Of a stretch of DNA of 64,000 nt, positions 55,993 to 59,749 are shown one piece after another. The stretch covers positions 41,244,914-41,308,913 of the forward strand of contig NC_016132.3 of assembly GCF_000005505.3 (NCBI RefSeq), written 5' to 3'. The translations under genes were made by a program, and so were the position numbers. Source of the DNA: Brachypodium distachyon (Eukaryota; Streptophyta; Magnoliopsida; Poales; Poaceae). Each line of letters opens with the position of its first letter. The stretch's first letter is position 1. The notes under the pieces are model-generated. The model had not been told where the DNA came from. It did not search any database and saw only the letters and a program-made list of their open reading frames with translations.

Positions 55993-56090
55993 ATTACATG
56001 CGCTTTATAATTTTACGAGTAAATTTCAACCAACCACATTTATTACATGCGCTTTATAATTTTACGAGTAAATTTCAACCAACCATATTT
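55993..56090. repeat. 49-bp tandem duplication across the left end of the MULE
   Basis: attacatgcgctttataatt continuing into ttacgagtaaatttcaacca is present at 55993 and again at 56042. Each copy contains the 9-bp target taattttac (56008-56016 and 56057-56065) plus the first 25 bp of the terminal repeat. Confidence 0.92.
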
Positions 56091-56399
56091 CTTGGTGCAG
56101 TCTTTTCAACCAACCACACATTTTGCTAATTTGTCTAGAAAACCACACTTTTTCGGTCTAATTGTCTCAAGTAGCCCAAAACTGATGATTAAACCTGTTT
56201 GACAGTTTTCCTTACATGTGGGGCCCATTGTCAGTTGCCCTCTCGGACAGCCCGTTAACCCGTCCGGCAGGACCAGGCCGCCGGAGCCGAAGAAGAACCA
56301 CATCGCTGCAGAGGGTCAGTCCCCCGGCGCGCGAACCTCTCGTCACTGCCTTCTCCAGGCCACGGGAGCAGCCTCACGGCGTCCTGTCTGGCGGCCGCG

Positions 56400-56720
56400 G
56401 TGTTCCTCCTGCTGGCCGAGGCAGAGCCGCGACGGCGCTGTTCCTCCTCTTCAGCCCGCACCCGCCGGACATCGCGGTCGCGCGGTGGATTCTTAGAAAA
56501 ATCCTGGAGCAGGTCGCGGACACGGAAGGAAGGCGGAGGCTCGTTAATTTGTCGCCGGTCGATGCCGGCGCCGGTGTCGGCGTCCGTGATGCGCACCAGG
56601 GCGGCCATGCGCACGCCGTGGGTGCAGACCTCGGAGGACGCGATGTTGCAGCGGAGGTTCGTCAGCACCGCAAACACCTCCGACAGCAGGCCCGGCCGGT
56701 CCCTGCCCACGCTATATTTG
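56400..56720 (-). pseudogene. Captured fragment of an ACT-domain repeat (ACR) gene
   Basis: The minus-strand frame contains SVGRDRPGLLSEVFAVLTNL, RCNIASSEVCTHGVRMAALV and RITDADTGAGI. This is the plant ACR-type ACT domain, known pattern DRPGLLSEVCAVLxxLxCNVxxAExWTHNxRxAAVVxVTD. ACR proteins are thought to sense amino acids. Only about one ACT unit is present, followed by Arg/Glu-rich sequence that may still belong to the parent. The sequence just upstream, tgcaaatatag, looks like an intron end. It lies inside the MULE and has no start of its own. Confidence 0.7.
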
Positions 56721-57107
56721 CATCTAGAAGTTGCATCCACCCAAAATCGAAGGCAGAAAGAGCAAAATTTCTTCCCTCCATGGCGCTCGCCTCCAATCCT
56801 GCTCCCAATCCTCCAGTCCCACAGCAGCACTAGCAGTCGCGACTCCATCAACCATCACCTAAGATTGCGCTGCTGCTGCTGTTGTAGCATGCCGTGGAGC
56901 CGTGGAGGCCCAGGCCAATCAGGCTCCGACCCTCCGCCGCCGCCCGCGCGCCCTCGCTCCGACCCGTCGCGGCTCGCGAGCCTTCCCTCCGCCACCAGCG
57001 CGCGTCCAATACGATCCGCTGCCACCCCCTTTTGCTCTACATTTCTACATTTCTAGACATTCTGGTAGTTCGACCGCGGAATTTTTTTGTTTCGGTATCT
57101 CTGGAAT

Positions 57108-58562
57108 ATGAGTGTGCGACTTGTTAAAATTGATCCTATTGATAATACATAGAAAGGGCCTGTTATCTCTATCAATATGATTCTAATTCGTCAGATATTA
57201 TTTATTGTAGTATTTGGAACACGAAATAGATAGAGTGGATCAAAAAAAAATGGAACTATGATTCATACCCACTATTCAGACCTCGCAACCAGACTGAAAA
57301 AATTGAAGTAGTTCTTAATAAAAAAGAAGAAATTTTCTTCCTTCCAATTTTGTTTGCCCAAAAGACAACTTTATTTTCTCTCCATTTTGTCGAGTCATTA
57401 CACGGATTCCATAAATGATTATCAAGTGGTTCTTATTCGAAGAACCCTTGCCTTTTGTTTAGCTTGAGACTCAATCATCTTGGCTCTAGTATGAATCTAA
57501 GGTTTAAATTGAACTGATTCATAGGATCGCAACAAGATAATTTCTATCAGAAAACTACAAGAATATTGGCTTTCTTTATTTACTAGTAAATAAAGAGTAA
57601 ATCCGCATTACACACAAAAAAAGAAATCAAAAATAGGGAAGAGAAAAGTCAAGAGGCCTCTAATGACCAATATAAGGGAAAGGAAGAAAGACAGATGAGC
57701 CAACTTGAGATTTTTTGGCATTAGCATTACAAAGAGGATATTCCGGATTTTTCTTATTTCATATTTTCAAGGCAAATCGACCCAATCCAGTGGCTGATGA
57801 AGTTTTGAACCTTTTTTCTAATATTCGTTGAAAATTTGTGTGTTTCTGCTTGAGCCGTACGAGATGAAATTTTCATATACGGCTCTTAGAGGGGGACTTA
57901 GGTTAGTTACCTATCTCAATAAAGTATATGATTGGTTTGAGGAACGTCTTGAGATTCAGGCAATTGCAGATGATATAACTAGTAAATATGTTCCTCCTCA
58001 TGTCAACATATTTTATTGTTTAGGGGGAATTACACTTACTTGCTTTCTAGTACAAGTCGCTACCGGTTTTGCTATGACTTTTTACTATCGCCCAACTGTT
58101 ACAGAGGCTTTTTCCTCGGTTCAATACATAATGACCGAGGCCAACTTTGGTTGGTTAATCCGATCAGTTCATCGATGGTCAGCAAATATGATGGTTCTAA
58201 TGATGATCCTACATGTATTTCGTGTGTATCTCACAGGTGGATTTAAAAAAACCCGCGAATTAACTTGGGTCACAGGTGTGGTTTTGGCTGTTTTGACTGC
58301 ATCGTTTGGTGTAACGGGTTATTCTTTGCCTTGGGATCAAATTGGTTATTGGGCAGTCAAAATTGTGACAGGTGTACCTGATGCGATTCCGGTAATAGGA
58401 TCGCCTCTAGTGGAGTTATTACGTGGAAGTGTTAGTGTGGGCCAATCCACTTTGACTTGTTTTTATAGTTTACATACCTTTGTACTTCCTCTGCTTACTG
58501 CCGTATTTATGTTAATGCACTTTCCAATGATACGTAAGCAAGGTATTTCGGGTCCTTTATAG
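57108..58562 (+). pseudogene. petB: Nuclear copy of plastid petB (cytochrome b6), open reading frame intact
   Basis: Exon 1 is the six bases atgagt at 57108-57113. The intron is 57114-57920 (807 bp). Exon 2 is 57921-58562, starting [18 protein letters not shown]. The joined frame has 215 residues, the exact length of plastid cytochrome b6. That protein is a four-helix subunit of the b6f complex binding two b hemes and the intron-encoded c' heme site; the heme-ligand histidines are visible (SVHRWSA, LHVFRV, SLHTF and LMHFPM). There are no stops or frameshifts. From memory of the conserved plant protein, several residues look changed (FKKTRE where Pro is usual, GSVSVG for GSASVG, LTCFYS for LTRFYS, SANMM for SASMM). 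A group II intron would not be removed in the nucleus, so it is treated as non-functional. Confidence 0.88.
57114..57920 (+). other. petB group II intron, complete, with domain V
   Basis: Starts gtgcgac (group II 5' consensus GUGYG). Domain V is the 34-nt hairpin at 57852-57885, gagccgtac...gatgaaa...ggctc. It is followed by a 35-nt domain VI segment to the exon at 57921. The length matches plastid petB introns. Confidence 0.85.
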
Positions 58563-58749
58563 GGAAGGCATATCATAGAGAATTAGAATTCTCATATATA
58601 ATATTGGGTAGGTTGTGGTATTTCATTGCTACAAACATGGGTTATTGTAAAATAACACATGTCATTTGGATACTTCTCTTCAACTCCGAAGTATTTTGAT
58701 ATAATACAAATAGTTGAAGTTAATTTTACAAAAGAAAAAAAGGCGGATT

Positions 58750-59395
58750 ATGGGAGTGTGTGACTTGAATTATAGATTTGGCCATGCAGATAAAGAATTG
58801 GATCTGCCACATTAGAATTCACAACCAAAGGTGTCTCCGCATCCAATCAACACGTAAGTCCCCTACCTAGGAAGGATAGGCTGGTTCACTTGAGGAGAAT
58901 ATTTTCTATGATCATACCCCAACCATGTCATCCATGAAAAGGCTCCGTAAGATCCCATAGAGTAGAAATGGAATAAGTCATGTGACATGATCCAATTCTC
59001 TATTTATTACACTTACCTTTTTTTATTATGGTATGGAAATGCATTCATTTTCTTTGCATCGATTGTGATTCGCAATACTATCGGAGTAAAAGAAGGGATC
59101 TAAGGAAGAGCATAGGCTAAACTTTTTGATTTTTTTATTAGTAACAAGTAAATACTTTGTTTGGGCGTAAGAAACTTGCGATAGTGAGGGGATAAAGACC
59201 AACTAATCAAGAGACATGAGACAATCCACAAAGCAATTGATCATGATCAAATTTGTAAGCCCACTTGGATATTGAGCATTTACCCATAAGAATAGGATTA
59301 TTTTCAATGAGTAGTTGTAGGTGCAACTTCGGAAAAGATAATCTGATAAAGCTTTTCTTGCCTAGAGTCATTGAGTAATTATATACCTTATTCTG
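58750..59395 (+). pseudogene. petD: petD exon 1 and truncated petD group II intron
   Basis: atgggagt at 58750-58757 is the 8-bp first exon of petD, followed at once by the intron start gtgtgacttg. The intron is cut near 59395, and the main exon of petD is absent. Confidence 0.82.
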
Positions 59396-59749
59396 ACCTA
59401 GGGCTCCCGCCTCTGCCCGCACGTCTCCGCTCGGCCCCGACGCCCCTGTCCGGCTCGCCCGCCTCCGTCGCCGCTGAGCGCGTGCTCTGGCGCGTCTATG
59501 CAGGCCCAATCCCAAGCCTGAACAGTCAGTTGCTGGGGATGATGGGTCGGCTTTGCCGTCCGACGTGGCAACCGACAGTAGGCCTCACATGTAAGAAAAA
59601 CTGTCGAAAGGGCTTAATCACCGGTTTTGGGCTACTTGAAACAATTAGACCGAAGAAGTGTGGTTTTTCGGACAAATTAGCAAAATGTGTGGTTGGTTGA
59701 AAAGACTGCCGCAAGAAGTGTGGTTTCTTAAAATTTACTCTAATTTTAC

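Follow-up and report, generated by a model that had tools for sequence, protein, structure and literature searches.

A plastid petB segment nested in a Mutator-like Pack-MULE of Brachypodium distachyon

Overview

A Mutator-like element in the genome of Brachypodium distachyon holds plastid DNA with petB between its terminal inverted repeats, and comparison with its relatives suggests that this DNA was probably ligated at a late stage into an already formed Pack-MULE copy, through ordinary NUPT formation. The element lies in the window, i.e. the whole 64,000-nucleotide stretch analysed here (C3:41244914-41308913), and the search space was the 271-Mb genome in 11 contigs. The original prediction that the TIRs enclose a plastid segment together with nuclear fragments holds in the form of a NUPT nested in a Pack-MULE. 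The further proposal, that a MULE carrying plastid DNA offers a route by which such DNA becomes mobile, finds no support, a single composite copy being present among the places checked.

Structure and classification of the element

The element at 56066-59740 is delimited by TIR arms of 186 nt that are 85% matched and that both begin with GAGTAAATTT when read from the outside inwards (Table 1). Both the inverted termini of about 180 bp and the exact 9-bp target duplication around the element, as initially described, are thereby confirmed. The 9-mer TAATTTTAC is not rare, occurring in the 64 kb at 5 sites on the plus strand and 2 on the minus strand, among them 56008 (in a 49-bp tandem duplication), 58721 (in the plastid piece) and 39732 (elsewhere in the window); it is counted as a TSD because of its exact position at both ends of the element rather than because of rarity. 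The 49-bp duplication of the left border probably arose after the insertion of the element, perhaps in the course of break repair at the end of the transposon.

Table 1. Features of the composite element and its borders, with positions in the window
Feature	Position	Strand	Basis or remark
Tandem duplication of left border, 49 bp (flank with TSD and first TIR bases)	55981..56078	+	probably later than the insertion of the element
Left TSD, 9 bp, TAATTTTAC	56057..56065	+	identical to 59741-59749
Left TIR, begins GAGTAAATTT	56066..56251	+	85% complementary to 59555-59740; related TIRs genome-wide
GC-rich nuclear fragment	56264..56487	.	two blocks, 86% and 87% to C3:6431479-6431972, with a genomic gap between
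Captured piece of ACT-domain exon	56559..56710	-	96% to C4:43062781-43062932; Pfam ACT PF01842, E 5.9e-9
GC-rich left interior, ends CCACCCCC	56715..57029	.	76% with indels to the plastid-free C3:6.53 Mb relative
TTTT at left plastid junction	57030..57033	.	filler, or counterpart of the relative's GTCT
Plastid DNA (NUPT): petB with group II intron, petB-petD spacer, presumed petD exon 1 and partial intron	57034..59394	+	plastome match
petB	57108..58562	+	exon 1 presumably 57108-57113, intron, exon 2 57921-58562
GC-rich right interior, begins TGACCTAGGG	59394..59554	.	62/65 bp identical to the C3:6.53 Mb relative over 59394-59458
Right TIR	59555..59740	-	85% complementary to 56066-56251
Right TSD, 9 bp, TAATTTTAC	59741..59749	+	identical to left TSD

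Ends related to these TIRs occur elsewhere in the genome, with at least 45 matches in one search and at least 42 in another, counts in which one element can yield more than one match. Among 12 chosen loci, including that in the window, five show exact 9-bp TSDs and three show TSDs with one mismatch, while the remaining four are unclear or one-ended. Counting that in the window, at least three dispersed, related copies of the element are present. Related TIRs (74-78%) are also found at both ends of a 13.7-kb element, C3:22128403-22142082, in which a DNA-binding domain of the MuDR type was identified (PF03108, E 8.3e-10); judged by this domain, the element links TIRs of this kind to a MuDR-type transposase. 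Its flanks have 8 bases in common, not 9, and no MULE transposase domain (PF10551) lies inside it among the 150 matches listed (best 150 of 666 scored), the reading having covered a minor part of its interior.

No transposase was seen in the window element, which, with its long TIRs and 9-bp TSD, is best called a non-autonomous TIR-MULE. A source-like locus for the ACT-domain exon on C4 (Table 1) identifies this piece as a captured fragment of a host gene, and the presence of such nuclear gene pieces makes the element a Pack-MULE. It agrees with the Pack-MULEs of grasses in its long TIRs, 9-bp TSD, nuclear gene pieces (including the ACT-domain exon) and dispersed copies. It differs from them in the 2.36 kb of plastid DNA within the window copy, a segment absent from the two relatives examined.

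The plastid segment

Positions 57044-59394 of the window match the plastome contig C11 (135,199 bp) at 70103-72453 with 15 substitutions (0.64%); in addition, one base is missing, one position corresponds to an N in C11, and another 1-bp gap is shared with a NUPT at C1:35.95 Mb. Allowing for an 8-bp tandem duplication (CTACATTT) in the alignment, as read by eye, moves the left edge to about 57034 and gives an insert of about 2.36 kb, in keeping with the 2.3 kb anticipated. The predicted content, namely plastid petB with its group II intron, the petB-petD spacer and part of petD, is likewise recovered inside the element. Exon 2 of petB is open and encodes cytochrome b6 (Pfam PF00033, E 4.6e-84), which is also its best PDB match (E 4.5e-136). 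The 6-bp sequence that we take to be exon 1, placed according to the usual structure of the gene, is in frame with exon 2 on translation. The 3' part of the group II intron is recognized at 57850-57920 (Rfam RF00029, 48.2 bits). Further downstream, the segment includes what are presumably the petB-petD spacer, petD exon 1 and part of the petD intron, assigned by reading of the sequence.

The exons of petB differ from the plastome at four nucleotides, each of which replaces an amino acid, and its changes mark the piece as an unconstrained nuclear copy. Given its 15 differences from C11, the segment is therefore an aged nuclear copy rather than a contaminant, and it is identified as a NUPT by its nuclear location, its 0.64% distinctness from the plastome and its two defined joints to nuclear DNA. 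No match was found in a plasmid collection. Like other NUPTs, it is a linear plastid piece, joined with little loss and decaying without evident constraint. It is unlike them in lying within a short TIR transposon, whose ends formally enclose it.

Plastid-free relatives and the insertion site

Two relatives, each with a TSD of its own, lack plastid DNA, the comparison of the whole composite with both loci giving no plastid match in either. The closest copy, C5:621872-623170 (TSD TAATTTTGC), is 97% identical over the left interior and, with the TIRs included, matches the left and right parts of the window element at 95% and 88%, respectively. The second, C3:6532856-6533886 (TSD AATTTATTA), is more distant. 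In this C3 relative only 4 bp separate the left interior from the right (CCACCCCC-GTCT-TGACCTGGGG), and the counterpart of this joint in the window is CCACCCCC-TTTT-(plastid)-TGACCTAGGG. A longer reading of the junction gives CCGCTGCCACCCCC-GTCT-TGACCTGGGGCTCCC for the C3 relative and CCGCTGCCACCCCC-TTTT-(plastid)-TGACCTAGGGCTCCC for the window. Accordingly, at most 4 bp of the element were lost at the insertion point, and at most 1 bp matches at the right joint. The C5 sibling has a 57-bp deletion across the insertion point (alignment columns counted by eye) and no inserted bases there.

The absence of plastid DNA from both relatives, taken together with the intact site in the C3 copy, therefore indicates that the element existed before it received plastid DNA. 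The original prediction had itself named a later, independent NUPT insertion, as revealed by related copies, as the outcome that would count against it; this is largely what the plastid-free copies on C5 and C3 reveal, the C3 copy keeping the insertion point.

The TSDs of the window element and the C5 sibling are alike at 8 of 9 bases, a likeness expected from composition at about 0.002 (one orientation) to 0.005 (both). No flank match was found between the two loci beyond the TSD, and the likeness might be due to chance or to target preference.

Other nuclear copies of the plastid segment

The plastid part has matches at at least 20 nuclear places among the best 40 of 454 candidates scored. 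Nineteen of the 20 listed places, all except C1:23089862, were examined for the TIRs or interior of the element, 18 of them with 1.5 kb on each side and one separately. None of the 19 showed TIRs of the window element's family around plastid DNA. Hence, the search for other copies holding both TIRs and plastid DNA, which had been proposed as the means of demonstrating movement as a unit, gave no second composite at these places. With the plastid-free relative keeping its site, the hallmark of a Pack-MULE whose cargo has moved with it is not seen for the plastid piece.

The 15 differences were also compared with 19 nuclear copies, each of which overlaps the segment in part. Six recur in at least one copy and nine are private where comparable. 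Of the 6 copies spanning 57358, 5 carry the difference at that site, and the change therefore most likely occurred in the plastome. Those at 57214, 57480, 57883, 58251 and 58458 are each found in one other nuclear copy. An origin from another nuclear plastid copy was rejected among the 19 compared, each of which has at most 2 of the 15 differences in common with the piece; the long NUPT at C1:35.95 Mb has none of them.

Relative timing of the insertion

The divergence of the NUPT, taken on one branch over about 2350 bp, is 0.64% with all 15 changes and 0.51% with 12, and the interior distance between the window and C5 copies (18/884) corresponds to 1.0% per branch. As point estimates, these sequence distances weakly suggest that the plastid piece may be younger than the split between the two copies. 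The one-sided p is 0.12, 0.065 or 0.045 with 15, 13 or 12 changes taken as nuclear, a status that is unsure given that 6 of the 15 are also seen elsewhere among the nuclear copies. The polarised changes fall mainly on the C5 side, as do all five differences between the window and C5 copies in the ACT exon. With changes so lopsided, the window branch may in fact measure less than 1.0%, in which case the dating argument would be weakened or reversed. With too few changes, uneven branches and doubt over which changes are nuclear, dating was rejected as a decisive argument.

Origin of the composite

The sequence of events that best accounts for these observations begins with a non-autonomous Mutator-like Pack-MULE that gathered nuclear gene pieces. 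A linear plastid DNA of 2.36 kb would then have been ligated, probably by end-joining, at a break inside the window copy, and this insertion is likely to have been later than the split from the closest sibling on C5. An alternative that we regard as unlikely is that the window and C5 copies descend from an ancestor that already had the plastid DNA. The composite would then have transposed at least once, and the C5 copy would have dropped the plastid piece when about 2.4 kb of its interior was deleted between short stretches of matching sequence. MULEs often undergo internal deletion, and the C5 deletion does span the insertion point and is bordered by a 2-bp GC match. This alternative requires as many events as late insertion does (one insertion and one deletion), and the few polarised changes on the window branch, set beside the 9 private and up to 15 total changes of the plastid piece, are also in its favour. 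Against it, the deletion would have to end no more than 36 bp from the left edge of the insert and 21 bp from its right edge, a closeness expected in about 0.6% of cases if the deletion ends fell anywhere between TIR and insert, whereas the chance that a 57-bp deletion in C5 covers the insertion point under later ligation is about 4% (57/1330). This geometry favours a small local deletion in C5. Moreover, no plastid bases remain in the C5 copy, and no second composite occurs among the listed plastid matches that were checked. Transposition of the MULE and its plastid DNA as a unit is thus an improbable element of the history of this locus.

Break repair is a leading idea among those proposed for DNA capture by Pack-MULEs, and the location of the plastid piece inside the TIRs, adjoining captured nuclear pieces, is what would be expected if the element had acquired it by its own process, through repair of a transposition break, in the same way as the nuclear fragments. 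We nevertheless consider this quite improbable: relative to the plastid-free copy, both halves of the interior flanking the insert are complete, ordinary NUPT insertion suffices, and TIRs of this family enclose none of the 19 other plastid-matching places checked. The least probable reading, to which we give very little credence, is an artefact of the assembly, or contaminating plastid DNA that became joined to a nuclear contig. While the locus is known here from the assembly alone, such an origin is countered by the 15 substitutions, an indel and the 8-bp duplication that separate the piece from the plastome contig, by the amino acid replacements at all four changed positions of the petB exons, and by the coincidence of the insertion point with a natural joint in the relative. 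Late ligation into the Pack-MULE copy accordingly remains the preferred reading.

Significance and relation to earlier reports

Known processes explain a NUPT nested in a Pack-MULE. The locus indicates that plastid DNA can land in a Pack-MULE whose ends are kept, resulting in a potentially mobile composite, and it offers a clean test case because the pre-insertion site survives in a relative. If a TIR transposon did move plastid cargo, nuclear organelle DNA could be spread by transposase, and its joining to other gene pieces by the same means would be possible. Were the composite ancestral to the window and C5 copies, petB would have been carried whole to a new chromosomal site by a MULE. Interest in the locus would rise if accessions were to show the composite at more than one site.

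A recent study (Genome Biol Evol 2025, PMC12572781) reports that certain TE superfamilies, which ones depending on the species, have NUPTs closer to them than expected, and suggests retrotransposon copying as a possible explanation for NUPT spread. The association described there differs from the present case in being one of statistical proximity with a preference for retrotransposons, and the word Mutator is absent from its main text. No description of plastid DNA inside a MULE was found in the accessible parts of the open-licence literature, including PMC3903597, PMC2528002, PMC3989485, PMC12572781, PMC11110229, PMC4632043, PMC3276141 and PMC2527572, a scope that makes this weak evidence of absence.

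Additional observations

A candidate second case of a MULE with plastid DNA, at C3:12.11 Mb, the only one of the places checked to have such TIRs nearby, was rejected, the old plastid-like piece (79%) lying about 260 bp outside a 1.1-kb element. Within C3:12108500-12118400 the piece occupies positions 4635-4948 and the 1.1-kb element, which has the same type of TIR, positions 5211-6332. The region C1:35950000-35959900 consists almost wholly of plastid DNA (99.9% over 9.76 of 9.9 kb) and represents a very young, large NUPT. The NUPT at C1:3904000-3913900 is rearranged and carries a 188-bp inverted duplication (99%) at 5086-5273 and 8270-8457. In the window itself, an inverted repeat at 34900-35600, with two 235-bp arms (88%) spaced by 231 bp, represents a foldback or MITE-like element.
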